Source: Prosopocoilus inquinatus
Lineage: Eukaryota > Arthropoda > Insecta > Coleoptera > Lucanidae
Direction of reading: 5' to 3'
NCBI GenBank assembly: GCA_036172665.1
Contig: CM069872.1
Location: 24,122,001 to 24,186,000 of the forward strand
DNA length: 64,000 nucleotides
Shown: positions 2,644-64,000 of the stretch, in pieces
How the letters are laid out: the number at the start of each line of letters is the position of its first letter
How positions within the stretch are numbered: position 1 is the first letter of the stretch
Made by a program: the position numbers and the translations under genes
The notes under the pieces: generated by a model
Told to the model about the DNA's origin: nothing
The model's input: only the letters and a program-made list of their open reading frames with translations
The model's database searches: none

Positions 2644-2646
2644 TTT

Positions 2647-11600: not shown

Positions 11601-14600
11601 ACAAACTGACGCAATTAGCTTCAAGCCTGTATATTTTGACATTCTTGCTATTTCTTTATAAAAATGTACTATTTCCACTGCTGCCATTGCTGCTTTTGTA
11701 TATCCATATCCTACTGGCTGTTTCCAATTTTTATTAATGCCACGTAACATGAAAACTATTACATGGTTTGCTACTTCATTAGTTTTGTGCCACCCATAAT
11801 CTTTAAAACCAACAATTTTGTCCTTATGTTGTAAATAATCCAGATGTGGCAGAAGTTGCATTTCATCGAAAATCAACGTGCATACGCGATCTTGTTTGTT
11901 ACACTTACTGAACTTGTTTTTTAATAAATTAAATATTGATTTTGAAATTCCAGGTTCCAATATGACACCATTTAATAAATTTCTTAATGTACTTATGGAC
12001 GGTAAGGTAAACAAATTTGACAATAGTTTATACATTTTTGGACTAGTTTTCCACAATGTCACAGCATCAGCTTTATCTTGAAAACTATATTTTCGAGCTT
12101 GTTTCTTTCTAGCAGCATTTCGTACCTGATTTTCAAAAAATCATAACTGGAAAGGAGTAAACTTTGCCGTTAACTTTTCAAATGCTGTTGTCTTTATCAA
12201 TTGTCGAACAGTAGATAATTGTCTTTTGTTGGTAGCATTCGTAGCTTCCAGTTTCCTAGCTTTTCTTCCCAACACCTTCAATTCCTCATGTAGAACTCGT
12301 TCCTTATGGGTCAAATTCTTTACTCTGGTAACTCCCAACAAAGATAAACCTGATCCTGTAAAATAAATTAATTACAAATGTATTATTTAGGCATTGCAAA
12401 CTTTTATACTTTTTGGATTCTGTTTCTGTTTTTCTGTTATTTTGGTTACCCTCTCTTGTGTAACGGAATCTAAACCGCAACCTTCTGCAAGTAGCTGTTT
12501 TCGTGCAGATACTGTTTGCAAATTAAGATTTTCGTATGATAGACCAGGTTGACTCACTGAAAATATTATTAAAAATCATTCTAAATACCTTAATTATATA
12601 GAATTTTACCTTCTACCAAAGATTCAATTTGTTTCTGAGTAGAAGGACCAGGCTGAGGTTCATGCATATCAATCGTCATTGCTTCATCCATTTTTGCCTT
12701 TGTCTCTAAATATATTCTTAGTGGAGAAATATTTAACTGTGTTTGTAAAGTTTCTGGAGTTCTTAATAAAGGCGATGGAGGTGTAATATTACATGCTGCT
12801 TGTTGTGCCTCATCCGAAATATCAATGTTAACATCAACATTTATTAGTCCTGCAATTGAAAAGAAAACAAATCTGTTATGCAACATCTACAGTATAAGTC
12901 AATTTCAAGCGATCGAGCTGTATTGTAATAGCTAATTCGATTGTATGTCCTAGAGAGCACCAGCATACTCTAGCTAAGAAAATGTGTTCGATATTTACAC
13001 ATTTAAGCTAAGGCATTGTGTCACATTCCAGTAGGTGTAATCGAAATTGCTTGAAATTAACTACAATATCTCTGTCATTTTTTTTAGGAAGTGTAAAAAT
13101 GTTAGAATGTTATCATTTTGGTAATTTCTAAGAACCCATCAACTAATACTAACATAACAAAACACTGATACATTTGCAGTTTTGAAGGTGTTCATATAAA
13201 TCTGTATAATTTAGAGAATGAAGTTTTACCTGGCAAATTAAGAGTTGGAATCACTCCTTTTTTTAAGCCTCGTCCAATGTAATCATCTGCTTTAAAATGT
13301 CTGTCACACACTCTTAGATTTTCATATACATAGTTCGCAGGTGTATGCTTCAGTTTTGGTTGTCCAATTACTTTTACCCATTGAAAATGTGTGTCCAAAT
13401 AAAATTTGGGGTTGGGAAAACGAAAAAATCTTCTCTTCGCATCCTTAGGTACACAACCAGGTACTGCACATTTTGTATGACTAGACATGTTTGAAGATAT
13501 TGACTTGGAAACACGTCGATAGTACAAATCTAAAAACGACAACTTATTTTATATTATTTTGGTTACTTACGAAATGTGTAATACAACTAGATGCCAATAA
13601 TTCAACAATTATTTTAAAACCTAAAACTCATCTTTATCAAGGATTTAACTTTGTTTTCAATACCGAACTATACCTAACTATATAATAAATATACTATACA
13701 ATAAATACACTAACTATATACTATGCACTAACTATAAACTAATATGAAATGTTCAATAAATATGTATACTAAAACACAAACAACAAACCAAACACAAAGA
13801 AAATATTTAACAACGCGTGCCATAAACTAACAAAACAAACATAAAGTCCATCAGTTTAGCCAATATTGCTAAAAGTAACTTAACAACTGTAAGAAATTGA
13901 AAATTCCTAGGTTCAGAGACAGCAACGCCATCTCATCTTGGCGGGGAAACTAATAAAATACCGGATTAATTGATACAATTTAAGTTGACACCCCCTGCTC
14001 TCAACTACTCCACCCCACTCTTCTCTCACACTCCTCCACTTCTTTCACACTCATTGTTACCAACTTTGTTTTGCTTTATGTCCCTATCACAAGTGTTTCC
14101 AAAATCGTCATTTAAAATCCCTATATCTTAACAACCAACCTGAGTCTTTAAAATTAATTTTTATGAATCGCTTAAATTTGTAATTTTTCACCCTGGCCTG
14201 GCTTTCTGAACGCGACCCCCAAATCTATATACTTTTCTACTTCACCGACTTTGTCTTCCGTGCCGGATGTTAGCCAATACATTTTCACCTTTCGCTACAC
14301 GTGCGTCTTCATTACTTGTAATTCAATTTTTTCAATTCTTTCATCAAAATGTAACAAACCTTGTTTTCTATTTTGATGCTGAAGATGGCCTTTATTTTGT
14401 ATTAAGACATGCCGAAACATATACCGGCTGTTTCAAATTGAGTGTGCACTGAAGGGATCTCCTAAACCGTAAGAGATACAAATTCGGTTAAAGGGAGGAA
14501 AAGTTGCACGAATTAATGCCTTCTTCGTATCCACAGACAGAATGATTTTTTTCTTATTTCTTCTTGAGATATTAATGAAAATGTAAAAAAAGTTGATTCT

Positions 14601-18764: not shown

Positions 18765-19089
18765 TGTTACGTTTCTAGGGTTTAAATTTATTTATTTAAA
18801 CGAATAAAACACTCGGTAAAAACTTAACCGTAATTTAATACTGCTTACGAACTAATTTATTTGTAACAATTTATTTTCACACTAAAATCTAACTTCAACG
18901 ATCGCTGTTAGAATTCGACTGACTCCTGAGTCCTCCCCGGCCGATTTTATATCCTTTGCTGCCCTCTCGAATTTTCTAACGTTGGAAGATTCGAGTTTGT
19001 TCGATGGTGGCGTGACCGCCGATGACGCATAATAATGAACCGACTTCTTGACGCCGTCAGTGTGACGTAGTGCTGAGTGGCTCGCCACA
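18765..19089 (-). repeat. 3' LTR of gypsy family B copy 1
   Basis: This 325-bp segment is homologous to the LTRs at 34236-34579, 36907-37250, 56099-56424 and 62369-62694. In element orientation it runs TGTGGCGAG...GTAACA and carries the same GATATAAAAT TATA-like motif. Confidence 0.9.
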
Positions 19090-22000
19090 CTGCCCCCTTC
19101 TTAAAAACGTTTCGTCTCGAAATGTTCCTGGCGATAGTCTTGAAGGAGGATGTCGGAATCTACAAGCTGGCCCATTCTTGCAACTTCCCGTTTGGAAGAA
19201 GTAGCAGTCTACGGTTTTGCTGTTGCTGACTGTTGCCTGTGGGTGGTGGCTGCAGACTAGGACTTCAATTCCCGTTCTGTTGAAGATGACTTCCAGCATG
19301 CTTCGAATTACTCTCCAGTCTAGTATGTCCAATCCGCAGCTCAATTTGGGGATGGCTAACTTCATCTGGTGGTTCTCTATTAGCTGTCTCCTCAGGCTAT
19401 ATAGGGCTCTCCACATACTTTGATAATCAGGTTTACCGCTTGATGTCTTCTTAGTGAGGAAATAATGCACGTGGCGCCTCCGATCTGCCCTCGAATCAAT
19501 GATCTGCAGATTCTTGCCTACCACGGGATGCTGTCTTCGGAGCTCCTCGATTTGGCCAAATTTCTTCCTAAACACCTGAGCGATTCCTTTGGACATTTTT
19601 AGGTCTTCTGCTACGCAGTGGGCCAGACTGTACTCCCGTGGCAGTTTAAAGAGATCTTCTTGCTTCTCCGTGGTCACTCCAAACCGTGCCTTACTTCCTT
19701 CAGCGTGATGAGACATGAAGGTTTCGAAGTTCACTTCGGAAACTTGCGCCCTTTTTACTGTCCCTTCATTTGCTTCTCCATGGTAAGGGTCTATCCGGTT
19801 GAAGTGGATTACTTTGGGTTTGCCTTGGGGGACCTTCTTGATGCGGTAAACGACGTCGTTGATCCGTTTCATCACTTTGTAAGGACCTTCCCAAGAGGTC
19901 TGCAGTTTTGGAGACAGGCCTCGACGCCTTTGGGGGTTATAAAGCTAGACTAGTGCTCCAGGTTGGTATCCCCCGTGTTGAGCGTTGATGTCATAGTGCT
20001 CCTTCATCCGATCGCTGGCCGTCTGTATATTGTGACGCATTTGGTTGTGGATGTCGTCCATTTTCCTGCGTAATTTGCTCACGTAATCTTCGTCGGCAGA
20101 GACATCGCCAGGTTTCACACCAAACTTCAGATCCCAGGGCAGTCTCGGCTCTCGCCCGAATACCACTTTCGCTGGAGTCTCCCGTGTTGTCTCATGAACG
20201 GACGAGCGGTATGCCATTAGAAACAGGGGAATGTACGTGTCCCAGTCCCTCTGATGATCGGAAACGACCTTGGACAAATGTCGGTTGATGGTTCTATTGA
20301 ACCTTTCCACCATTCCGTCCGACTGTGGGTGGAGTGCAGTTGTTCTAGTTTTTCGTACGCCGAGCAGAGTACACACTTTCTTGAACAAGGCCGATTCTAA
20401 GTTCCTTCCTTGGTCTGAATGCAGTTCCATAGGTGCACCATACCGACTGATCCATTCCCTGACAAGGACTTCCGCAATAGTGACTGCCTCTTTGTTAGGT
20501 AGGGCGTAAGCTTCAACCCACTTGCTAAAATAGTCCATTACCACGACGATGTACTTATTTCCACCATTCGTTTCTGGAAACGGACCGGCTACATCGATGG
20601 CAACTCTCTCAAAAGGACTTCCAACGTTGTACTGTCTCATGGGGGCCTTGCCCCGCCTGTGGTGACCGTTACTGGCTGCGCAGACTGCACACTTTCTGCA
20701 CCAATCCTTCACGTCTTCCTTGCAGTTGACCCAGTAAAATCTTTCGCGCACCTTCTCCATAGTTTTCTTAACTCCCAGATGCCCTCCCGAAGTTCCATCG
20801 TGAAGTTCCCTCAGAACTTCTGGCACCCTATTCTTGGGGATTAGTAACTGTGTCTTCTGTTCCATGCCTTCCTGATTCTCTATGCTTTGTCTCAGAAGAC
20901 CACGATCCAACACTATGGAGTCCCACTGCGCCCAGTATGATTTTACGGACGGTGCACATGGTGCTACCTCTTCCCAAGTAGGCCTCGCATCCCTGCTTTT
21001 CCACTCTAGCACTAATTTCAAATCCGGGTCGTTCTCCTGGTCTCTTCGCAGTTCTTCGCCTTGCCATTTGTCGTCAACAATGGCAGTCCTCGCAGTCGTG
21101 GCTACTTTCTCGTCCAAACGACTACAGTGCTTACAGTCTTCGGCACATTTTAGAGCGGCATGGTCGGTCCTCAGCAGAAAGCGTCTACCATACAAGTTAC
21201 TTGTAGAAGTGTTCTATCATTTTTACGACGGCTAGCAATTCCCTTCTTGTGACGAAATAGTTTCGTTCCGGCTTTGATAGGACTTTACTGAAGTAGCCGA
21301 TCACCTTCTCTTGCCCCTCTTGTATCTGGGAGAGTACGCCACCAATCCCAACGTTGCTAGCATCTGTGTCCACGACGAATTTGCCTTCCGGGAGAGGATA
21401 ACTCAGAATAGGAGCACTAATCAAGTACTACTTTAGTTGTTCAAAACCAGTTTGACACTGTTGGACCCATTCAAATGGACGACCTTCTTCAGTGAGTTTA
21501 GTCAACGGCTTAGCAATGTCTGCAAATCCAGGAACGTAGCGCCGATAGTAAGTGCACAGGCCAAGGAAACTCCTTATTTGGTATTTATTTCTGAGAGTTG
21601 GCCAGTCTTTCACCACCTGAATCTTCACAGGATCCACGGCGATTCCATTTCCATTAACGATGTGCTCCAGGTAATGCACTTTATGCATGCACGTTGTCCA
21701 GGACAGACCTTTCAGAACCATCTCCATTAACCTCTCGAATGTCGCTGGGGCATTACATAATCCGAATGGCATCACTGTGAACTGCCAGAGACCCATACCA
21801 ATGGAAAACGCCGTCTTTTCTCGATCTTCAGGCGCCAGCTCCACTAGCCAATATCCACTCTTTAAGTTCAAAGTTGAGAAGATCTTTGAGCCGGCCAGGG
21901 CGTCCAGGGTATCATCAATCCGTGGCAGGGGATAGCTGTCCTTCTTGGTGACATTGTTGAGTAACCGGTAGTCTACACAGAACCTGGTGGACCCATCCTT

Positions 22001-34679: not shown

Positions 34680-36731
34680 ATGGCTACGAGAAAAGTGTTG
34701 TTGAAAGACTTAAAAGTGGCCGAATTAAAAACCGAATTGGAAGAACGAGAGTTAGAAACCGGTGGTTTGAAAGGCGCACTTCAACAGCGTCTCCGATCCG
34801 ATTTGTTGACAGCTGGCGAAGATCCAGAGACCTTCCTTTTCGAAATTTCGTGTGGTCCCGCCGATTTTAATAAAATCCTAAAAGATGAACTTCGAGAACA
34901 ATCCAGAAATTTAGAGCAAAAGCTTCTAGAACAATCTGGAAATTTCAAGGACGAACTTCGAGAACAATCTGGAAATTTCAAGGACGAACTTCGAGAACAA
35001 TCCAGAAATTTGGACGAGAAGTTTCAAGAACAGTCTGGAAATTTAGAGAAACTTCGAGAACAATCCAGAAATTTAGAGGAAAAGCTTCTAGAACAATCTG
35101 GAAATTTCATGGACGAACTTCGAGAACAATCCAGAAATTTAGAGGAGAAGCTTCTAGAAAAATCTGGAAATTTCAAGGACGAACTTCGAGAACAATCTGT
35201 AAACTTCAAAGACGAGTTGCAAACTAAATTGATGGAACAATCCAGAAATTTAGAGGAGAAGCTTCTAGAACAATCTGGAAATTTGGACAAATTACAGAAT
35301 AAATTGTTGGAACAATCTAGAGACTTAGACGAGAAATTTCGAGAGCACTCCAGAAATTTTGACGAGAAATTTCTAGAACAAACAAAAGGACTCGAAGATA
35401 AATTAGTGGTAAAAATATCAGAAGAAACAAAGAACCTGCAAGAAAATGTGGAGGAAATAATATTTCAGCAGGATAACAAAATCAAAAATCTGGAACAAAT
35501 CATGGCGGGGTTGCGAGTGTTCGGGGATCAGCCACCAGTAGAAACACTAGAAAATAATGAAACCCGAATTGTGGAAGGACCAGCAGAAAATTCGAAATTA
35601 AAAATAAAACCACCGACGTTCGATGGAAAATCTTCTTGGCCCAACTACTTCAAACAGTTCGAAGCAGCAGCAAAGGCAAACAGATGGACGGCCAGCGAAA
35701 AAGCCACTTCGTTAATTGTGGCCTTGAGAGGAGACGCTATCGATGTGCTACAGACGATGCCGCCAGAGGAACAAGAAGACTTCGACAAGCTTGTGAATAG
35801 GATGGAAATGCGTTACGGACAGGCCCATCTGACCGAGGTATACCATGCGCAGTTGAGGAATCGCTGTCAGAAATCCGGAGAAAGTCTTCAGGAATTCGAA
35901 GCGGACGTAGCGCGTCTGGCCCAGTTGGCATATCCCACAGCTCCCGTTGAATTCCTCAAATGTTTGACGGTGCAGACCTTCATAGATGGAATCCGTGACC
36001 CAGACAACCAGCAGGCATTGAGAATGACCCATCCGAAGACATCCAAGAACGCATTGGCTTATGCCTTGGAATTTGAAGCGGCGAGACGAGTCTCAAGAGG
36101 GCATGTCAAGGTGCGAGCGGCTATGGACTTCCAAGAGGAAAAAGAGGAAGAATCCGCTAATGCCAAGGTGGGATCTGCTATAAAGGAGCGACCCAGGGAG
36201 TATACCACCGCCGAGGATGTTCGCCGCATTGTGGAACAGGTCTTCAAGCAGAAAAAGCCGCTGGAAAGGCCAGGACGAAGGACATGTTCGCAGGCGATGT
36301 CCAAAGCCCAGACAGGATCCAAGGAAGCCACAGTTAAACTAAGCCGGGCCGGTGCAGAGGGCCAAACGTCGACTTGTATTCAAAGGCCCCCAAAGACGAA
36401 AGCCAAACAAGTAATATCCCTACGGCAGTTAACCAGCAGTGTCTTCGTGGATGTCACCATTGATGACATTCCTCACACCATGTTGTTGGATACGGGTGCG
36501 ACGAAGACCATCCTAAGACCCGACGTCATTAAGTCATCTGGACGCACCGAGCCGACCAAGTGGAAACTGAAAACTGCAACTGGAACATCAGCAACTGTCC
36601 ACGGTGAAGTAGAGGTTATCATCACCATTGGTTCAATTGGCCATCCCCAAATTGGGCTGCGGATTGGATGGACTAGACTGGAGAGTAATACGAAGCATGC
36701 TGGAAGTCATCTTCCACAGAACGGGAATTGA
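34680..36731 (+). CDS. gag: Gag-protease of gypsy family B copy 2, with SAP-like N-terminus and coiled-coil repeats
   Basis: 683 aa. Residues about 9-40 (DLKVAELKTELEERELETGG and on through LQQRLRSDLL) fit the SAP motif, a DNA/RNA-binding helix-extended-loop-helix. Residues about 70-240 are roughly fifteen copies of an 11-residue unit of the type LREQSRNLEEK, predicted to be a long coiled coil. Next comes a gag capsid-like region (PPTFDGKSSWPNYFKQFEAAAKANRW, YGQAHLTEVYHAQLRNRCQKSGESLQEFEADV in two parts). The nucleocapsid knuckle is lost: a short deletion turns the CCHC into LERPGRRTCSQAM and shifts the frame so that gag reads straight into protease (FVDVTIDDIPHTMLLDTGATKTIL, active site DTG). 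The protein ends shortly after the deletion junction with out-of-frame sequence. Confidence 0.85.
   Translation: MATRKVLLKDLKVAELKTELEERELETGGLKGALQQRLRSDLLTAGEDPETFLFEISCGPADFNKILKDELREQSRNLEQKLLEQSGNFKDELREQSGNFKDELREQSRNLDEKFQEQSGNLEKLREQSRNLEEKLLEQSGNFMDELREQSRNLEEKLLEKSGNFKDELREQSVNFKDELQTKLMEQSRNLEEKLLEQSGNLDKLQNKLLEQSRDLDEKFREHSRNFDEKFLEQTKGLEDKLVVKISEETKNLQENVEEIIFQQDNKIKNLEQIMAGLRVFGDQPPVETLENNETRIVEGPAENSKLKIKPPTFDGKSSWPNYFKQFEAAAKANRWTASEKATSLIVALRGDAIDVLQTMPPEEQEDFDKLVNRMEMRYGQAHLTEVYHAQLRNRCQKSGESLQEFEADVARLAQLAYPTAPVEFLKCLTVQTFIDGIRDPDNQQALRMTHPKTSKNALAYALEFEAARRVSRGHVKVRAAMDFQEEKEEESANAKVGSAIKERPREYTTAEDVRRIVEQVFKQKKPLERPGRRTCSQAMSKAQTGSKEATVKLSRAGAEGQTSTCIQRPPKTKAKQVISLRQLTSSVFVDVTIDDIPHTMLLDTGATKTILRPDVIKSSGRTEPTKWKLKTATGTSATVHGEVEVIITIGSIGHPQIGLRIGWTRLESNTKHAGSHLPQNGN
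34888..35390 (+). repeat. 33-bp coding minisatellite in gag, copy 2
   Basis: Tandem imperfect units of 33 bp encoding LREQSRNLEEK-like or LREQSGNFKDE-like hendecads, with a few 30-bp or longer variants. Compare 56694-57180 in copy 3, where unit order and number differ. Confidence 0.9.
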
Positions 36732-36939
36732 AGTCCTAGTCTGCAGCCATCATCCACAGGCAACAGCCAGCAACAGCAAAACCGTAGACTGCTACTTCTT
36801 CCAGACGGGAAATTGCAAGAATGGACCAGCTTGTAGATTCCGACATCCTCCTTCAAGACTATCACCAGGAACATTTCGAGACGAAACGTTTTTAAGAAGG
36901 GGGCAGTGTGGCGAGCCGCTCAGTGCTGCGTCACGCTGA
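36641..36939 (+). pseudogene. Residual macrodomain C-terminus and CCCH finger, gypsy family B copy 2
   Basis: After the deletion junction the frame reads LAIPKLGCGLDGLDWRVIRS, then VLVCSHHPQA and the CCCH finger CYFFQTGNCKNGPACRFRH. It is out of frame with the upstream gag-protease frame and has no natural start. It continues into the 3' LTR, stopping at 36939. Confidence 0.85.
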
Positions 36940-50771: not shown

Positions 50772-53429
50772 CTACAGTAACAAGAGCTTTGGCCGCTTGT
50801 ACCTGTAGTGCGGATTTTCTGCGTCGTACTTTCCCAGATCCCTTATCAAGGGGTTCGTCGCGTCCTCGGCTTTGGCGTAGAGGATCTTCGCCTTAAGCTT
50901 CACAAAGTCGGCTATATAGAGTAGCTTCAGGTCGTTGTGCAGCGTCTCATTTCTGACAAACTTCCACGATCCTGTCATGGAGCGAAGCGTTCGGTTTTGA
51001 AATACTTGGAGCCGCTTCAGAACCGTCGGTGAAGACGCCCACGCGGCGCTTGCGTACGTCAGGATGGGTCGTAGCATACTCGTATACAGCAGTCTTTTGT
51101 TGTTTAACGAGAGTGTGGATCGGTGATTCAGCAGTGGATATAGCTTACAGAATTGTCCGTGCGCCCTTTTCAGTGCGTAATCGGTATTCGCTCGGAAGTT
51201 TAGCCGCTTGTCCAGGATCACTCCGAGATATTTGGCTTGACCTTTCCACTGTATCGTCGTATTACAGAGCGTCAGCTCCTCCAAGTCGCCAGGAAATCTT
51301 CTGGTGTACAGGACTGCTTCGCTCTTATCGGCATTCACTTTGATTCTCCAACGGGCGTAATACTTTTCTAGCGCGTGCAGGTGGGTTTGCAGTTTCCGGT
51401 GGATCAGCTTGACGCTTCGCGATTGTGCAAAGACCGCCGTGTCATCCGCGTAGATGGAGGTTCTCTGGTCCGTCGGTATGTCATTGACATACAGGTTGAA
51501 CAGAACCGGCGCGACCACACTTCCCTGCGGGACGCCTGCTTCGATGGACTTAACCGACGACTTGGAGTCTACGCAGCTGACATAGAACTTACGGTCGGTC
51601 AAGTAGGAGTTTATCAGACGGATATAGACTCTGGGGAAGTTTAGCCTGGCTAGTTTGTACAGCAGACCGTCGTGCCAGACCTTGTCGAATGCTTTCTCAA
51701 TGTCCAGGAAGACGCAGCCGGTGTGTTGCTTGTCGTTGAAGCCTCGGGTGATGTGTTCCGTTGTTCGCAGAAGTTGTTCGACGGTGCCGTGTTCTTCTCG
51801 GAATCCGAACTGTTCGTTGATTAACAGGTCGTTGGCTGTTATATGGTTGACGATTCTGTCGTAGAGAGTTCTCTCGAATATTTTGCTGAGTCCTGAAAGC
51901 AGACTGATGGGCCTGTAGTTGGACGCCTTTTTCAGCTCTTTGCCTTGCTTCGGAATCATGATGACCTTGGCGAGTTTCCAGCATTTCGGGAAGTGGGAAC
52001 ACGAGTATATGCCATTGCAGATGCTCGCAAAAACGCTTACGGCTTCTTTCGGTAGGAATTTGATGGCGGTGTTGCTTATGTCCTCGTCGCCGGGTGCTTT
52101 CTTGCATTCCAGCCTCTGGATTTTTTCAACGATTTCTTCTGCCGTTACGTGCTTGGCGGGTGATTCGACCGGTCTGGCCAGAATGCGCTGGACGGTGTTC
52201 GTAATTTGGGTGTTGAATCGCTCGTACTTGACCGGATTTGCTTTAAACTGTCTTTCCAGGGAGTCCGCGAACAGTTCAGATTTCGCTGAAGGATCATCGG
52301 CCATCTTCCCCTGCTCGTCAACTAATGCCGGGGCGTAGGTGCGGGATTTGATTAGTCGCCTGGTGCATTTCCACAGGGAATTGCTGTCCGTTGTTAAAGC
52401 GGTTGTTGTCTTTGCCCACGTTTCGTCTCGGTGCTCTTTGACAGCGTCTCTGACTTGATGTACCAAGGCGTTGAGCCGTGCGTGCTGTCTCGGCTCTCTG
52501 TACTTTTGCCAGAGTTTTCTGATGCGATTTTTCTTCTAGAGGAGAAGCAGAACGTCTTCGGGAAGTTGAAAAAGAGGACGATTTCTCGTGCGCAGCGTGG
52601 TGCACTCGTCCAGGCAGGCCTTGATGTTGCTTGTTAAGTTGGCCGTTTCGCGTTCGACGTCCTCTGGTGAGGCCATTCTGACGTTGGGGTCGACAATTGC
52701 AGAAAGCTTGTCGCGGTAAAGCTCCCAGTCAATTTTGTGCACGAGTCTGGCAACGGGAGGACAATTTCTGAATTGCAGATCAGTCAGCGTTAGTAGAACT
52801 GGATTGTGGTCCGAGTCTAGCTCTGGGAGAGACCATAATTCGTAGGCGCTGGTTATTTCGCTGAGCACGGCGATGTCTAGGACGTCGCTGCCGTGCTGGT
52901 GAAAATGCGTTGGGTCTTCGGGTGCGGCGACTGCTAGTCCATTCAGGTTTGCGTAACGACGCAGCGTTTGCCCTCGTGCGTTCGGGACTCGGGAGTTCCA
53001 AGAGGAGTGCTTTGCATTTAGGTCTCCGGCGAGAATGGCTTTCGTCTTAATGCTTAGTAGCTTCGTGATGTCGTCTGTGTCCAAATGTTTCGTGGGACTG
53101 TTGTATACTGCCGCCAGAAGAATCTCCTCGCCTCCTAACTTGGTCATTACTGTTGTCGCTTCAATTGTGTTTAGATCAGGACAAGCTGTTTCGTAGTGAG
53201 GTATGCCTCTCTTCACCAAGATTGCTGTACCGCCGCGGGGACTGTTTAACCTGTCTTTCCGGTAGACCACGTAGTTGGGCAACTTGAAGTTAGTTTGCGG
53301 CTTCAGGTGCGTTTCGCAGACGAGAATCACATCTGCTTTGTGTCTTTCCGCTGTTTCTCTGAGCACGGCGGCTTGGTTACGAATGCCGTTGGCATTCCAG
53401 TAAATTATGTTTGCTGGTTTACTGGCCAT
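50772..53429 (-). pseudogene. Jockey ORF2 (endonuclease-reverse transcriptase) with one in-frame stop
   Basis: The N-terminal AP endonuclease reads IIYWNANGIRNQ, VILVCETHL, GGTAILVKRG, LAGDLNAKHSSWNS, and LDSDHNPVLLTL. Then comes the reverse transcriptase: KKAPGDEDISNTAIKF, NYRPISLLSGLSKIFER, FGFREEHGT, FLDIEKAFDKVWHDGLL, AGVPQGSVVAPVLFNLYVND and SIYADDTAVFAQS (catalytic YADD). The single frame is interrupted only by a TAG at 52536-52538, between the two domains. Total length is about 885 codons, normal for Jockey ORF2. The frame overlaps the end of ORF1 by 11 bp. Confidence 0.9.
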
Positions 53430-56098: not shown

Positions 56099-56424
56099 TG
56101 TGGCGCGCCTCCCGGCTTAGCTCAAGGCGTCAAGAAGTCGGTTCGCTGTTACGCGTCATCGGCCGTCACGCCACCGGGGCCTACATCGAACAGACTAGAC
56201 TTCTCCAGCGTGGAGGATTCGAGACGGCCGCAAAGGATATAAAATGGGTCAAAGTTGACTCACTAGGCAGTCGAATTCGAACAGCGATCGTCGAAGTTAG
56301 ATTTTAGTGTGAAAATAAATTGTTACAAATAAATTAGTTTTTAATCTTTATTAAATTACGGTTAAGTTTTTATCGAGTGTTTTATTCGTTTAAATAAATA
56401 AATTTAAACCCTAGAAACGTAACA
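56099..56424 (+). repeat. 5' LTR of gypsy family B copy 3
   Basis: TGTGGCGCG...GTAACA, 326 bp, with a TATA box TATAAAAT near 56238 and AATAAA motifs downstream. Compared with copy 2 its U3 has an 18-bp shortening. Confidence 0.97.
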
Positions 56425-56445
56425 GTGGTGTCGGTGTGCGGGTTT
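56425..56445 (+). other. Putative primer-binding site
   Basis: GTGGTGTCGGTGTGCGGGTTT directly follows the LTR; TGG one base after the LTR end is typical of pairing with a tRNA 3' CCA. The same sequence follows the copy 2 LTR (34580 on). The tRNA is not identified. Confidence 0.6.
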
Positions 56446-56522
56446 GTGCAAATAAATAAACAATTTAAAGTAAATTAAATTTAATCAGATTATTAAATAA
56501 GTACAGTATCGGAAAAAAAACA

Positions 56523-58136
56523 ATGGCTACGAGAAAAGTGTTGGTGAAAGAACGAGAGTTAGAAACCTGTGGTTTGAAAGGCGCACTTCAACAGCGTCTC
56601 CGATCCGATTTGTTGACAGCTGGTGAAGATCCAGAGACGTTCCTTTTCGAAATTTCGTGTGGTCCCGTCGATTTTAATAAAATCTTGAAAGATGAACTTC
56701 GAGAACAATCCAGAAATTTCAAGGACGAACTTCGAGAACAATCTGGAAATTTCAAGGACGAACTTCGAGAACAATCCAGAAATTTGGACGAGAAGCTTCT
56801 AGAACAATCTGGAAATTTCAAGGAAGAACTTCGAGAACAATCTGGAAATTTCAAGGACGAACTTCGAGAACAATCCAGAAATTTGGACGAGAAGTTTCTA
56901 GAACAATCTGGAAAATTCAAGGACGAACTTCGAGAACAATCCAGAAATTTGGACGAGAAGTTTCAAGAACAGTCTGGAAATTTACAGAAGCTTCGAGAAC
57001 AATCCAGAAATTTAGAGGAGAAGCTTCTAGAACAATTTGGAAATTTCGACAAATTACAAAATAAATTGTTGGAACAATATAGAGACTTAGACGAGAAATT
57101 TCTAGAGCAATCCAGAAATTTCGACGAGAAACTTCTAGAACATTCCGGAAATTTGAAGGGTGAATTTCTAGAACAGACGAAAGGACTCGAAGATAAACTA
57201 GTGGTAAAAATATCGGAAGAAACAAGAAACCTGCAAGAAAATGTGGAAGAAATAATATTCCAGCAGGATAACAAAATCAAAAATCTGGAACAAATCATGG
57301 CGGGGTTGCGAGTGTTCGGGGATCAGCCACCAGTAGAAGTACTAGAAAATAATGAAACCCGAATTGTGGAAGGACCAGCAGAAAATTCTAAATTGAAAAT
57401 AAAACCACCAACGTTCGATGGAAAGTCTTCTTGGCCCAACTACTTCAAACAGTTCGAAGCAGCAGCAAAGGCGAACAGATGGACGGCCAGCGAAAAAGCC
57501 ACTTCGTTAATTGTGGCCTTGAGAGGGGACGCTATCGATGTGCTACAGACGATGCCGCCAGAGGAACAAGAAGACTTCGACAAGCTTGTGAATAGGATGG
57601 AAATGCGTTACGGACAGGCCCATCTGACCGAGGTATACCATGCGCAGTTGAGGAATCGCTGTCAGAAATCCGGAGAAAGTCTTCAGGAATTCGAAGCAGA
57701 CGTAGCGCGTCTGGCCCAGTTGGCATATCCCACAGCTCCTGTTGAATTCCTCAAATGTTTGACGGTGCAGACCTTCATAGATGGAATCCGTGACCCAGAC
57801 AACCAGCAGGCATTGACAATGACCATCCGAAGACGTCCAAGAACGCATTGGCTTATGCCTAGGAATTTGAAGCGGCGAGACGAGTCTCAAGAGGGCATGT
57901 CAAGGTGCGAGCGGCTATGGACTTCCAAGAGGAAAAAGAGGAAGAGTCCGCCAACGCCAAGGTGGGATCTGCTAATAAGGGGCAATCCAAGGAGTATACC
58001 ACCGCCGAGGATGTTCGCCGCATTGTGGAACAGGTCTTCAAGCAGAAGAAGCCGCTGGAAATGCCAGGACGAAGGACATGTTCGCAGGCGATGTCCAAAG
58101 CCCAGACAGGATCCAAGGAAGCCACAGTTAAACTAA
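56523..58136 (+). CDS. gag: Gag of gypsy family B copy 3 (SAP motif truncated, frame scrambled near the end)
   Basis: 537 aa. Compared with copy 2, 12 residues are missing near the N-terminus (MATRKVLVKERELETCG), removing the first helix of the SAP-like motif. The 11-residue repeat array covers residues about 58-220. The capsid-like region is intact to about residue 435 (ALTMT); then a 1-base deletion near 57826 shifts the frame, and the shared 8-base deletion in the zinc knuckle near 58060 shifts it back, so the protein ends in the original gag frame (KCQDEGHVRRRCPKPRQ...PQLN). About 75 residues in between are out of frame and the first CxxC of the knuckle is lost. The gag stop at 58134-58136 implies that protease-pol is normally reached by frameshifting. 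Confidence 0.85.
   Translation: MATRKVLVKERELETCGLKGALQQRLRSDLLTAGEDPETFLFEISCGPVDFNKILKDELREQSRNFKDELREQSGNFKDELREQSRNLDEKLLEQSGNFKEELREQSGNFKDELREQSRNLDEKFLEQSGKFKDELREQSRNLDEKFQEQSGNLQKLREQSRNLEEKLLEQFGNFDKLQNKLLEQYRDLDEKFLEQSRNFDEKLLEHSGNLKGEFLEQTKGLEDKLVVKISEETRNLQENVEEIIFQQDNKIKNLEQIMAGLRVFGDQPPVEVLENNETRIVEGPAENSKLKIKPPTFDGKSSWPNYFKQFEAAAKANRWTASEKATSLIVALRGDAIDVLQTMPPEEQEDFDKLVNRMEMRYGQAHLTEVYHAQLRNRCQKSGESLQEFEADVARLAQLAYPTAPVEFLKCLTVQTFIDGIRDPDNQQALTMTIRRRPRTHWLMPRNLKRRDESQEGMSRCERLWTSKRKKRKSPPTPRWDLLIRGNPRSIPPPRMFAALWNRSSSRRSRWKCQDEGHVRRRCPKPRQDPRKPQLN
56694..57180 (+). repeat. 33-bp coding minisatellite in gag, copy 3
   Basis: Tandem units of GAACTTCGAGAACAATCCAG-type sequence, mostly 33 bp, encoding LREQS(R/G)N(L/F)(D/K)(E/D)K/E. 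Unit order differs from copy 2, indicating expansion or contraction between copies. Confidence 0.9.
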
Positions 58137-61100
58137 GCCGGGCCGGTGCAGAGCGGCAAACGTCGACCCGTATTCAAAGGCCCCCAAAGACGAAAGCCAA
58201 CCAAGTAATATCCCTACGGCAGTTAACCAGCAGTATCTTCGTGGATGTTACCATTGATGACATTCCTCACACCATGTGGTTGGATACGGGTGCGACGAAG
58301 ACCATCCTAAGACCCGACGTCATTAAGTCATCTGGACGCACCGAGCCGACCAAGTGGAGACTGAAAACTGCAACTGGAACATCAGCAACTGTCCACGGTG
58401 AAGTAGAGGTTATCATCACCATTGGTTCAACTCCAATAAAACACCGTGCTCTGGTGGCAGATATAGAGGACGAGGCAATTTTGGGCATGGACGTCATGTG
58501 TGCCCACGGGTTCCAATTGGACTTAAAGCGTGGCGTGATGGCGGTCAATAATGAGGAGTTGGTTCTACATCAACGAGGGGACGTGGCCGCTCGAGTAGTC
58601 CTCGCTGAAGACATTGTATTACCCAGCAGGACTGAGGTTATCGTCGACGCAAAACTGGACGGTGTTTTTCAAGATGGGCAAGTCATTATGGTTGAACCTA
58701 ATACTGATGATCAAAGGATTGGAAGAGGAGCCCTCGTTGGGGAAATGTTGTTGACGGCGAAGAAGGAAGTACCTGTCCGCCTGATAAACGTCAATTGTTT
58801 CTCCGTCAATATCAAGAAAGGAACCATCTTGGGAAGCTGCACCATGGTGTCCTCCATCTCCCGGCAACTTGAAACAAACGTGCCAGAAGCGAAAGTCCCA
58901 ATGAAGTTATGGGAAATGGTTATGTCAACAGCTCAGAAATTGACTCCAGACCAGAAGACAAAAGCAAAGAATCTGATCGGTCGTTATCAAGATGTATTCG
59001 AGGTAGAAAATGGATCCAAGGGAAGAACTGATGTCGTGAAACACAAAAGAGAGACTCGAGAAGAAAGACCTATTCGTCAAGCTCCAAGGCGATTACCGTT
59101 GGCGAAGCGTGAGGAAGCGGAACGCATTATTCGCGATATGGAAAAGGATAATGTGATAGAACCATCAAGCAGCCCGTGGGCGTCACCAGTAGTGCTTGTG
59201 AAGAAGAAAGATGGGTCCACCAGGTTCTGTGTAGACTACCGGTTACTCTACAATGTCACCAAGAAGGACAGCTATCCCCTGCCACGGATTGATGATACCC
59301 TGGACACCCTGGCCGGCTCAAAGATCTTCTCAACTTTGGACTTAAAGAGTGGATATTGGCAAGTGGAGCTGGCGCCTGAAGCTCGAGAAAAGACGGCGTT
59401 TTCCATTGGTATGGGTCTGTGGCAATTCACAGTGATGCCATTCGGGTTATGTAATGCCCCAGCGACATTCGAGCGGTTAATGGAGACGGTTCTGATAGGT
59501 CTGTCCTGGATAACGTGCATGGTGTACCTTGACGACATAATTGTCGTGGGAAAAACGTTCGACGACCACCTGAGGAACCTGGAAGGAGTGTTCCAGCGGC
59601 TTCGCGGAGCTGGACTAAAGCTTAGCCTCAAGAAGTGCCACCTGTTCCAGAAGGAAGTGAATTACCTGGGGCACATTGTTAATGGAAATGGAATCGCCGT
59701 GGACCCTGTGAAGATTCAGGTGGTGAAAGACTGGCCAACTCCCAGAAATAAACACCAAATAAGGAGTTTCCTTGGCCTGTGCACTTACTATCGGCGCTAC
59801 GTTCCTGGATATGCAGACATTGCTAAGCCGTTGACAAAACTCACTGAAGAAGGTCGTCCATTTGAATGGGACCAACAGTGTCAAATTGGCTTTGAACAAC
59901 TAAAGCAGTACTTGATTAGTGCTCCTATTCTGAGTTATCCTCTCCCGGAAGGAAAATTCGTCGTGGACATAGATGCTAGCAACGTTGGGATTGGTGGCGT
60001 ACTCTCCCAGATACAAGAGGGGCAAGAAAAGGTGATCGACTACTTCAGTAAAATTCTATCAAAGCCGGAACGAAACTATTGCGTCACAAGAAGGGAATTG
60101 CTAGCCGTCGTAAAAACGATAGAACACTTCTATAAGTACTTGTATGGTAGACGCTTCCTGCTGAGGACCGACCACGCCGCTCTAAAATGGCTTCTCCGTT
60201 TCAAGAACCCAGAAGGGCAAGTTGCACGATGGATCGAACGACTTCAGGAGTACGATTTTGAAATTCAGCATCGGGCAGGAACTAGCCATCGAAATGCCGA
60301 TGCTTTGTCGAGAAGACCCTGTGCCGAAGACTGTAAGCACTGTAGTCGTTTGAACGAGAAAGTAGCCATGACTGCGAGGACAGCCATTGTTGACGACAAA
60401 TGGCAAGCCGAAGAACTGCGAAGAGACCAGGAGAACGACCCGGATTTGAAATTAGTGCTAGAATGGAAAAGCAGGGACGCGAGGCCTACCTGGGAAGAGG
60501 TAGCACGATGTGCACCGTCCGTCAAATCATACTGGGACTCCATAGTGTTGGATCGTGGTCTTCTGAGACGAAGCATAGAGAATCAGGAAGGCATGGAACA
60601 GAAGACACAGTTACTGATCCCCAAGAATAGGGTGCCAGAAGTTCTGAGGGAACTTCACGATGGAACTTCGGGAGGGCATCTGGGAGTTAAGAAGACTATG
60701 GAGAAGGTGCGCGAAAGATTTTACTGGGTGAACTGCAAGGAAGACGTGAAGGATTGGTGCAGAAAATGTGCAGCCTGCGCAGCCAGTAACGGTCCCCACA
60801 GGCGGGGTAAGGCTCCCTTGAGACAGTACAACGTTGGAAGTCCTTTTGAGAGAGTTGCCATCGATGTAGCCGGCCCATTTCCAGAAACGAATGGTGGAAA
60901 CAAGTACATCGTCGTGGTAATGGACTACTTTAGTAAGTGGGTTGAAGCTTACGCCCTACCTAACCAAGAGGCGGTCACTATTGCGGAAGTCCTTGTCAGG
61001 GAATGGATCAGTCGGTATGGTGCACCTATGGAACTGCATTCAGACCAAGGAAGGAACTTTGAATCGGCCTTGTTCAAGAACGTGTGTACTCTGCTCGGCG

Positions 61101-62512
61101 TACGAAAAACTAGAACAACTGCACTCCACCCACAGTCGGACGGAATGGTGGAAAGGTTCAATAGAACCATCAACCGACATTTGTCCAAGGTCGTTTCCAA
61201 TCATCAGAGGGACTGGGACACGTACATCCCCCTGTTTCTAATGGCATACCGCTCATCTGTTCATGAGACAACAGGGGAGACTCCCGCGAAAGTGGTATTC
61301 GGGCGAGAGCCGAGACTGCCCTGCGACCTGAAGTTTGGTGTGAAGCCTGGCGAAGTCTCTGCCGACGAAGATTACGTGAGCAAATTACGCAGGAAAATGG
61401 ATGATATCCACAACCAAGTGCGTCACAATATACAGACGGCCAGCGATCGGATGAAGGAGCACTATGACATCAACGCTCAACACGGGGGATACCAACCTGG
61501 AGCACTGGTCTGGCTTTATAACCCCCAAAGACGTCGAGGCCTCTCCCCAAAATTACAGACCTCTTGGAAAGGTCCTTACAAAGTGATGAAACGGATCAAC
61601 GACGTCGTTTATCGCATCAAGAAGGTCCCCCATGGCAAACCCAAAGTAATCCACTTCAACCGGATAGCCCCTTACCATGGAGAAGCAGATGAAGGGACAG
61701 TACAAAGGGCGCAAGTTTCCGAAGTGAACTTCGAAACCTTCATGTCTCATCACGCCGAAGGAAGCAAGGCACGGTTTGGAGTGACCACGGAGAAGCAGCA
61801 AGATCTCTTTAAAGTGCCACTGGAGTACTGTCTGGCCCACTGCGTAGCAGAAGACCTGAAAATGTCCAAAGGAATCGCTCAGGTGTTTAGGAAGAAATTT
61901 GGCCAAATCGAGGAGCTACGAAGACAGCATCCCATGGTAGGCAAGAGCTTGCAGATCATTGATTCGACGACAGATCGGAGGCGCCACGTGCATTATTTAG
62001 TCACTAAGAAGACATCAAGCGGTAAACCTGACTATCAAAGTATGTGGAGAGCCCTATATAGCCTGAGGAGACAGCTAATAGAGAACCATCAGTTGAAGTT
62101 AGCCATCCCCAAATTGGGCTGCGGATTGGACGGACTAGACTGGAGAGTAATTCGATGCATGCTGGAAGTCATCTTCCACAGAACGGGAATTGAAGTCCTA
62201 GTCTGCAGCCACCACCCACAGGCAACAGTCAGCAACAGCAAAACCGTAGACTGTTACTTCTTCCAGACGGGAAGTTGCAAGAATGGGCCAGCATGTAGAT
62301 TCCGACACCCTCCTTCAAGACTATCACCAGGAACATTTCGAGACGAAACGTTTTTAAGAAGGGGGCAGTGTGGCGCGCCTCCCGGCTTAGCTCAAGGCGT
62401 CAAGAAGTCGGTTCGCTGTTACGCGTCATCGGCCGTCACGCCACCGGGGCCTACATCGAACAGACTAGACTTCTCCAGCGTGGAGGATTCGAGACGGCCG
62501 CAAAGGATATAA
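57905..62512 (+). CDS. pol: Pol of gypsy family B copy 3: protease-RT-RNase H-integrase-macrodomain-CCCH
   Basis: 1535 aa, fully open. Protease DTG at about 127-129. RT at about 416-640 with [34 protein letters not shown] and YLDD at 541-544. RNase H has VVDIDASNVGIGG, RRELLAVV and LRTDHAALKW. Integrase has an HHCC zinc domain (about 915-960), VAIDVAGPFP, HSDQGRN and MVERFN supplying D, D, E, then a GPY/F module (WKGPYKVM). The extra part is at about 1306-1432: LAHCVAEDLKMSKGIAQVFRK, HVHYLVTKK, and AIPKLGCGLDGLDW, matching the TARG1/OARD1-type macrodomain, with both a Lys after the central strand and the Asp of the GCGLD loop retained. Then a CCCH finger, CX7CX5CX3H, at 1450-1468. The last about 48 codons lie in the 3' LTR. 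The Met at 57905 is internal; translation is probably by gag frameshift. Confidence 0.9.
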   Translation: MRAAMDFQEEKEEESANAKVGSANKGQSKEYTTAEDVRRIVEQVFKQKKPLEMPGRRTCSQAMSKAQTGSKEATVKLSRAGAERQTSTRIQRPPKTKANQVISLRQLTSSIFVDVTIDDIPHTMWLDTGATKTILRPDVIKSSGRTEPTKWRLKTATGTSATVHGEVEVIITIGSTPIKHRALVADIEDEAILGMDVMCAHGFQLDLKRGVMAVNNEELVLHQRGDVAARVVLAEDIVLPSRTEVIVDAKLDGVFQDGQVIMVEPNTDDQRIGRGALVGEMLLTAKKEVPVRLINVNCFSVNIKKGTILGSCTMVSSISRQLETNVPEAKVPMKLWEMVMSTAQKLTPDQKTKAKNLIGRYQDVFEVENGSKGRTDVVKHKRETREERPIRQAPRRLPLAKREEAERIIRDMEKDNVIEPSSSPWASPVVLVKKKDGSTRFCVDYRLLYNVTKKDSYPLPRIDDTLDTLAGSKIFSTLDLKSGYWQVELAPEAREKTAFSIGMGLWQFTVMPFGLCNAPATFERLMETVLIGLSWITCMVYLDDIIVVGKTFDDHLRNLEGVFQRLRGAGLKLSLKKCHLFQKEVNYLGHIVNGNGIAVDPVKIQVVKDWPTPRNKHQIRSFLGLCTYYRRYVPGYADIAKPLTKLTEEGRPFEWDQQCQIGFEQLKQYLISAPILSYPLPEGKFVVDIDASNVGIGGVLSQIQEGQEKVIDYFSKILSKPERNYCVTRRELLAVVKTIEHFYKYLYGRRFLLRTDHAALKWLLRFKNPEGQVARWIERLQEYDFEIQHRAGTSHRNADALSRRPCAEDCKHCSRLNEKVAMTARTAIVDDKWQAEELRRDQENDPDLKLVLEWKSRDARPTWEEVARCAPSVKSYWDSIVLDRGLLRRSIENQEGMEQKTQLLIPKNRVPEVLRELHDGTSGGHLGVKKTMEKVRERFYWVNCKEDVKDWCRKCAACAASNGPHRRGKAPLRQYNVGSPFERVAIDVAGPFPETNGGNKYIVVVMDYFSKWVEAYALPNQEAVTIAEVLVREWISRYGAPMELHSDQGRNFESALFKNVCTLLGVRKTRTTALHPQSDGMVERFNRTINRHLSKVVSNHQRDWDTYIPLFLMAYRSSVHETTGETPAKVVFGREPRLPCDLKFGVKPGEVSADEDYVSKLRRKMDDIHNQVRHNIQTASDRMKEHYDINAQHGGYQPGALVWLYNPQRRRGLSPKLQTSWKGPYKVMKRINDVVYRIKKVPHGKPKVIHFNRIAPYHGEADEGTVQRAQVSEVNFETFMSHHAEGSKARFGVTTEKQQDLFKVPLEYCLAHCVAEDLKMSKGIAQVFRKKFGQIEELRRQHPMVGKSLQIIDSTTDRRRHVHYLVTKKTSSGKPDYQSMWRALYSLRRQLIENHQLKLAIPKLGCGLDGLDWRVIRCMLEVIFHRTGIEVLVCSHHPQATVSNSKTVDCYFFQTGSCKNGPACRFRHPPSRLSPGTFRDETFLRRGQCGAPPGLAQGVKKSVRCYASSAVTPPGPTSNRLDFSSVEDSRRPQRI
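62356..62368 (+). other. Polypurine tract
   Basis: AAGAAGGGGGCAG immediately upstream of the 3' LTR, the plus-strand primer site; it lies inside the pol coding frame. The same tract precedes the 3' LTRs of the other copies. Confidence 0.85.
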
Positions 62513-62694
62513 AATGGGCCAAAGTTGACTCACTAGGCAGTCGAATTCGAACAGCGATCGTCGAAGTTAGATTTTAGTGTGAAAATAAATTGTTACAAAT
62601 AAATTAGTTTTTAAGCTTTATTAAAATACGGTTAAGTTTTTATCGAGTGTTTTATTCGTTTAAATAAATAAATTTAAACCCTAGAAACGTAACA
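62369..62694 (+). repeat. 3' LTR of gypsy family B copy 3
   Basis: 326 bp, differing from the 5' LTR at three positions (for example AATGGGCC versus AATGGGTC). It contains the last 144 bp of the pol frame. ATAT follows. Confidence 0.97.
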
Positions 62695-62964
62695 ATATAA
62701 TATAATTCTCTTTGTTATTACTATTATTGGCTATTCTTTTATTTTTTTCTTTCTTTCAATAATTTCACTGTGGAAGAAGAGGGACGAGGTGTATCCGGCC
62801 GAAGAAACACGCCGCGGACCGGGATTTATTCGCAACGTTTTCTTATTTTAAGTAATAAGCGGCCAAAGTCGTCGCCGCCGCCAGATTTATTTCTTAAATT
62901 AATCATTAATGCCGCGGTGAGTGTGCCTTTGGAATCAGCGAAATCTCGAAAGAATCGGTTTTGT

Positions 62965-62980
62965 GGTTCTGAAAAGAACC
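62965..62980 (-). terminator. Histone 3' stem-loop of H4-2
   Basis: The minus strand reads GGTTCT-TTTC-AGAACC, a perfect stem. Confidence 0.95.
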
Positions 62981-63042
62981 TTTATTATTGAATTTATGTA
63001 CGTCTCTCCGTTCGTCGTTAAACGTCTTCGTCTTCGGTGCGT

Positions 63043-63357
<315 letters not shown>

Positions 63358-63681: not shown

Positions 63682-64000
<319 letters not shown>

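Follow-up and report, generated by a model that had tools for sequence, protein, structure and literature searches.

A TARG1/OARD1-type macrodomain at several positions in the Pol polyprotein of Ty3/gypsy elements

The Pol polyprotein of a young Ty3/gypsy element in a beetle genome continues beyond integrase, in frame, into a TARG1/OARD1-type macrodomain and a CCCH zinc finger, and related elements carry the same kind of macrodomain at other positions of Pol. ADP-ribosylation serves as a signal in antiviral responses and in DNA repair, and viruses use macrodomains as counter-tools. The presence of the macrodomain at several positions of Pol suggests protection against a host mark or defence. 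We propose, holding the reading with about equal belief and doubt, that it is a Pol-borne ADP-ribosylhydrolase of TARG1 type that would remove host-added ADP-ribose from the cDNA or the proteins of the element.

The window element and its macrodomain

The window, which is the whole stretch of 64,000 nucleotides analysed, belongs to a 650 Mb genome (G000, contig C4) and contains the element at 56099-62694 (Table 1). The element is young, and ATAT is found on both outer LTR flanks, consistent with a 4-bp target-site duplication. Pfam and a structure search gave the Pol domain order protease (PR), reverse transcriptase (RT), RNase H, integrase (IN) H2C2, rve core, p58_C, macrodomain and CCCH finger; the order PR-RT-RNase H-IN with the p58 module, the paired LTRs and the target-site duplication identify it as Ty3/gypsy. 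Gag and Pol lie in different frames in the window copy; in several other genomic copies the macrodomain belongs to one open frame of about 1900-2200 aa. The zinc knuckle of Gag (zf-CCHC) scored 14.9 bits, under the cut-off of 20.8, and the tandem 33-nt units of Gag at 56652-57220, which keep the frame, gave weak apolipoprotein-type Pfam matches. Beyond p58 the open frame carries about 280 further residues, reads through the polypurine tract and ends within the 3' LTR, so that the macrodomain and CCCH fusion abuts the polypurine tract. Pfam matched no dUTPase family in the window Pol.

Table 1. Features of the window element and of two older copies in the window
Feature	Position	Strand	Basis and remarks
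5' LTR	56099..56424	+	TG...CA, 326 bp; 99.08% to 62369-62694, 3 mismatches
gag-like ORF, 537 aa	56523..58136	+	ORF list, Pfam; 33-nt repeats, weak zinc knuckle
pol ORF, 1535 aa	57905..62512	+	ORF list, Pfam; macrodomain and CCCH fused in frame
aspartic protease	58241..58498	+	PF13975
reverse transcriptase	59198..59680	+	PF00078, 2.8e-35
RNase H	59867..60253	+	PF17919/PF17917
integrase H2C2 and rve core	60617..61123	+	Pfam
integrase p58 C-terminal module	61571..61672	+	PF22938
TARG1/OARD1-type macrodomain	61781..62203	+	phmmer, E 8.1e-29 to 2eee
K1368, equivalent of TARG1 Lys84	62006..62008	+	structure-search alignment, multiple alignment, copy comparison
D1409, equivalent of TARG1 Asp in GCGLD	62129..62131	+	structure-search alignment, multiple alignment, copy comparison
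CCCH zinc finger CX7CX5CX3H	62252..62308	+	zf-CCCH PF00642, 27.8 bits against cut-off 20.5
3' LTR	62369..62694	+	LTR pair comparison; contains pol stop at 62512
copy 1: p58, macrodomain and CCCH frame of older insertion	19060..19944	-	Pfam, motif and DNA alignment
copy 2: 3' remnant of macrodomain and CCCH, beside protease fragment	36613..36936	+	DNA alignment, Pfam

Searched with phmmer against solved structures, the translation of 61715-62509 matched human OARD1/C6orf130 over query residues 23-163 (141 residues). By this full-domain match the extra region of Pol is classed as a TARG1/OARD1-type macrodomain, and a macrodomain fold is predicted from its similarity to the solved TARG1. With the Pfam Macro model (PF01661) the piece 61715-62509 reached 17.9 bits, copy 1 16.3 bits and the complete Pol 14.5 bits, all under the cut-off of 22 bits, so that such fusions may escape annotation; some relatives clear the cut-off (P0231, for example, at 32.5 bits). 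A second name of the solved relative, O-acetyl-ADP-ribose deacetylase 1, would suit an enzyme hydrolysing small molecules such as O-acetyl-ADP-ribose instead of macromolecular marks. There seems to be no clear reason for such an activity in Pol at variable positions, and we regard this as hardly probable at all.

D1409 aligns with the aspartate of the GCGLD loop of TARG1, presumably Asp125 in number and in role, and K1368 aligns with Lys84, described as the catalytic lysine of TARG1 (PMC8501950). Both residues are present in 166 of 167 aligned macrodomains, an alignment built from two protein searches after removal of near-copies and short fragments, with two window rows and human OARD1 added; the exception, Diabrotica P0047, has R and E. 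Among element-borne macrodomains the pair is kept in 84 of 86 rows, which include many close copies and are thus not independent counts, the misses being P0047 and L060 (P numbers denote public proteins, L numbers loci of the window genome). In this element-borne set the family pairs compared are only 36-63% identical in the macrodomain.

The nearest solved chains to the CCCH finger found by phmmer are those of CPSF4, and all four ligands of the finger are kept in 29 of 30 window-family copies compared. A sequence-only reading of the window had placed this part of Pol in the TARG1 branch from three motifs, with the Lys and Asp of that branch and a CX7CX5CX3H finger behind it. The three motifs occur in the window Pol as written, and the OARD1 match, the alignment of K1368 and D1409 and the zf-CCCH score agree with that assignment. 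The role it put forward, reversal of ADP-ribosylation, is a putative one.

The window contains other elements and genes. On the minus strand a histone 3' stem-loop (Rfam Histone3) at 62939-62985 and an H4 frame of 103 aa at 63043-63354, and on the plus strand the start of an H3 frame at 63688-63999, the two frames being recognised by eye, lie beside the element, which was therefore inserted next to histone genes. Another gypsy element, with a more distant RT and with RT and IN pieces broken by stops, is found at 4777-7973 (minus), where no macrodomain was detected. A 662-aa frame at 10077-12062 (minus), with TNP-like RNase H-fold and GTP-binding insertion domains, is presumably a P-element-type transposase. 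Finally, a non-LTR retrotransposon with RT and endonuclease frames occupies 50775-53429 (minus) and has five further copies of equal RT score on contigs C5 and C90.

Copies, selection and recurrence in gypsy Pols

Within the window, copy 1 has 95.4% DNA identity to the macrodomain across 654 bases (19090-19743, minus) and carries the motif variants HYFLTKK and SCGLDILDW, and copy 2 retains the 3' part of the domain (36624-36906, 94.4% DNA identity). The longer frame of copy 2 has a SAP domain at its N-terminus according to Pfam. A search of the same genome with the macrodomain region gave at least 144 scored matches, the best-scoring part of 3242 first-look candidates, and the matched stretch is free of stops in 128 of the 144 listed and has one stop in the other 16. 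A single-copy fusion was rejected in view of the many copies in this genome and the relatives in other species. A chance or frame artefact was likewise rejected on the OARD1 match, the mostly open copies and a dN/dS below 1.

Selection was analysed in 30 copies (the window copy, copy 1 and 28 of 29 further loci, L017 being dropped for poor alignment, 70.7%), the loci being the top 30 of the 144 listed protein matches to the macrodomain region, window first. Pairwise dN/dS was 0.25 in integrase, 0.38 (0.27-0.51) in the macrodomain, where dN is probably lowered because copies were chosen by protein score to that region, and 0.10 in the CCCH finger; it was 0.48 in the tail reaching into the LTR. 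None of the 30 copies has lost K or D. Stops were found inside the macrodomain in 2 of the 30 copies and inside integrase in 5, and gaps in integrase in 10. The window family, in copies chosen by score, looks constrained and shows signs of purifying selection. The earlier suggestion that the macrodomain is a family trait is borne out by copy 1, the 3' part in copy 2 and the matches in this genome. Lack of the junction in other species and a dN/dS near 1 in the extra region had been named as results that would speak against it; the junction of p58 and macrodomain recurs in Aromia, Molorchus, Diabrotica and further public records, and dN/dS there is below 1 in the score-selected copies.

When different families are compared, the macrodomain shows lower identity than RT-RNase H in 23 of 24 pairs (such as 59/81%, 42/80%, 44/77%, 49/73% and 59/86%, macrodomain first), the exception being the window against P0056 (46% and 41%), and it is less conserved than integrase in 12 of 12 pairs compared. 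This lower conservation also fits a weaker constraint on the macrodomain.

The best named protein matches to the window domain are from longhorn beetles. Three positions were found in the window genome, namely between PR and RT, between RNase H and IN, and after IN, and a fourth, before PR, was found only in the public proteins P0056 and P0234; at least four architectures exist, against the one described earlier. The protein searches detect only relatives sharing short words, and this breadth is a lower bound. The macrodomain follows IN, with a CCCH finger, in the window family, Aromia moschata, Molorchus minor, Diabrotica virgifera and further public records, and follows IN with no CCCH finger detected in P0072 (Carabus), P0077, L037 and L048. 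It lies between RNase H and IN in public proteins P0054, P0058, P0075, P0235 (Rhynchophorus) and P0232 (Leptinotarsa) and in L039, L040, L045, L056, L058 and, in decayed form, L060. P0233 and the loci L038, L041, L042, L044 and L050 carry it between PR and RT. In P0242 it precedes RT and no PR was detected; in P0228 it follows IN, though this protein is of the P0056 RT lineage; and P0082 has an additional RNase H domain, with the macrodomain at its end. Confinement of the macrodomain to one position is rejected by the carriers of the PR/RT, RNase H/IN and after-IN types. Around selected macrodomain matches, RT, RNase H or IN pieces were found on the same strand in 14 of 14 loci of the window genome. 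The L041 type has 23 listed copies, the query included, with an RT equal to the query over its full length, so that this family probably moved very recently.

These observations bear on the idea that the domain is a passenger, a trapped host TARG1 exon carried without function. It is less conserved than RT and IN and is absent or decayed in some lineages, as a passenger might be, but it is open in most listed copies with a dN/dS below 1, its catalytic pair survives wide divergence, it recurs at several positions, and it is present in the L041 type with its 23 listed copies of identical RT. This explanation, already disfavoured, we consider very improbable.

Many gypsy elements hold a chromodomain after integrase, and P0231 has the order IN, chromodomain, macrodomain. 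Such an arrangement would suit a reader and not an eraser, a domain that directs integration in the manner of a chromodomain by binding ADP-ribose on chromatin or at DNA breaks. Binding alone, however, would not need the catalytic pair that is kept in 84 of the 86 rows, and some of the positions are far from integrase; we judge this role improbable.

Several records deserve separate mention. Residues 690-766 of P0231, downstream of the macrodomain, gave a sub-threshold match to a rhabdovirus glycoprotein domain (19.3 bits against 22) and are perhaps an envelope-like part. L060 has an open Pol frame of 1273 aa (160-3979, plus); its macrodomain, placed between RNase H and IN, is decayed and has lost the catalytic Asp. 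Public records name some of these Pol proteins OARD1-like or even tropomodulin (P0091, P0232). P0040, of the window type, comes from a 5.4 kb contig filed under the fungus Erysiphe pulchra, which would mean contamination or transfer. In P0066, P0068, P0071, P0080, P0223, P0224 and P0229 a TARG1-like macrodomain match is accompanied by Pfam accessions that we take to be those of DNA ligase, and these proteins would form another link of the domain to DNA ends.

In an RT-RNase H tree of 33 rows, with P0242 coded as PR/RT despite the lack of a detected PR, the positions need at least 7 changes and presence needs 3. No macrodomain was found within the 4.3-4.5 kb examined at L055, L057 and L059, which represent three lineages; L057 nests within the PR/RT clade and L059 within a RNase H/IN clade (each 100/100), and L055 adjoins L038 (96/75). 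Since RT proximity or RT score guided the choice of the non-carriers, the tree shows interspersion and not frequency; L056, L058 and L060, picked as RT references, proved to carry a macrodomain or a decayed one. L061, which spans only PR through RNase H plus a downstream part in which no integrase was detected, has no macrodomain there and was left out of the tree. Trees of the macrodomain itself, with about 143 columns, are poorly resolved. The window type forms a clade in them (100/98 and 93/94), and a single origin of the element macrodomains is not rejected (p-AU 0.226) when 30 rows of a 73-row tree are constrained, 29 of these being labelled element-type (some short, with no RT or IN piece found) and the other being P0098. 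A 52-row macrodomain tree is unreliable because of the long-branch rows L058, L060 and L056. Both several captures and fewer captures followed by movement inside elements would be compatible with these trees.

One TARG1-like locus, L051 (contig C5, around 3752370-3753236), has two tandem macrodomain stretches and is apparently split by introns, and no retroelement pieces were detected in the 3.35 kb examined there. It is presumed to be a host TARG1-like gene, in which the tandem macrodomains are a possible gene duplication.

A proposed role in the particle

The macrodomain, with its predicted hydrolase activity, is part of the same polyprotein as RT and integrase and would consequently enter the particle and the preintegration complex. 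Inside the particle it would remove mono-ADP-ribose added by host transferases to the element's own material, the candidate substrates being nascent single-stranded cDNA and DNA ends, and RT, IN or Gag modified on acidic residues. In the window family the CCCH finger probably holds RNA or single-stranded DNA near the active site.

TARG1 is reported to strip ADP-ribose from glutamate and aspartate of proteins (PMC11102865) and to remove thymidine-linked ADP-ribose from DNA, where the K84A form gave no rescue (PMC8501950). Single-stranded telomeric DNA is described as being modified by PARP1, a modification reversed by TARG1 (PMC11102865). Reverse transcription makes single-stranded DNA, the kind of target relevant to this activity. 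The activity of TARG1 on single-stranded DNA, together with a placement like that of dUTPase, leads us to prefer an enzyme that travels in the particle and cleans cDNA or Pol proteins, and that would act against ADP-ribose as retroviral dUTPase acts against uracil. The wider claim, that Ty3/gypsy elements took up a TARG1-type enzyme more than once and use it in the particle to clean cDNA, much as dUTPase deals with uracil, is a tentative possibility. Judging from the sequences of the RT neighbours L055, L057 and L059, which were found without it, and of L060 and P0047, which lack catalytic residues, the macrodomain is not indispensable.

The main rival is a role in trans on the host, in which the macrodomain would reverse PARP-1-dependent modification of chromatin or repair proteins and would lift silencing or ease repair of the integration gap. 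The position after integrase would place the macrodomain at integration sites, but nothing in the positions before PR or between PR and RT suggests integration, and TARG1 targets terminal ADP-ribose, not PAR chains. In Drosophila parp-1 mutants 5 of 8 significantly misregulated mobile elements are reported to rise, and 9 of 10 further elements rising below significance belong to the gypsy superfamily, an effect that the authors call possibly indirect (PMC7712786). SIRT6 is also reported to repress L1 through mono-ADP-ribosylation of KAP1 (PMC4695847). Taken together, we find such a role in trans rather unlikely.

If the wider claim of repeated acquisition is correct, it would imply that animals possess a defence, so far undescribed, by which a host transferase places ADP-ribose on the cDNA or the enzymes of retroelements. 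It would also imply an arms race under which the catalytic pair is preserved while the rest of the macrodomain diverges quickly. Recurrence at several positions, which dUTPase also shows, would suggest that reverse transcription in insects meets a common obstacle. The question of whether ADP-ribosylation of cDNA or of RT and integrase limits retroelements thereby becomes testable.

Comparison with known systems

Human TARG1/OARD1 (C6orf130) shares with the window domain the full-domain match (8e-29), the catalytic Lys and Asp and the motifs LAHC..D..M..GIA and GCGLD, but it is a cellular single-domain enzyme of about 150 aa, whereas the window domain is part of a retroelement Pol and is followed by a CCCH finger. 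The macrodomains of coronaviruses and alphaviruses are ADP-ribosylhydrolases that counter host PARPs; they belong to RNA viruses and to a MacroD-like branch, unlike the TARG1-type domain of the window. The macrodomain of the antitoxin DarG is by description a structurally similar hydrolase, but it is a partner in a bacterial toxin-antitoxin system.

The dUTPases of retroviruses and of rotifer elements are, like the macrodomain, accessory enzymes of variable placement, but their fold and chemistry are unrelated to it and the likeness is an analogy of placement only. Retroviral dUTPases are described between gag and RT, between RT and IN, or after IN (PMC5408684), and those of rotifer elements between PR and RT (PMC4531489). 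In the lentiviruses BIV and JDV the dUTPases are reported to be truncated (PMC4531489), which may be likened to the decayed macrodomain of L060.

Among the papers listed by a full-text search of freely available literature, none was seen to describe a macrodomain in the Pol of a Ty3/gypsy element. Closest among the precedents found are some fish epsilon-like endogenous retroviruses, which carry macro-domain reading frames (Basta et al. 2009, as cited in PMC4977317). There too the macrodomain is carried by an LTR retroelement, but as described in that source it lies in additional frames of vertebrate retroviruses, whereas the window type is found in beetle gypsy Pol, belongs to the TARG1 branch and occupies several positions.
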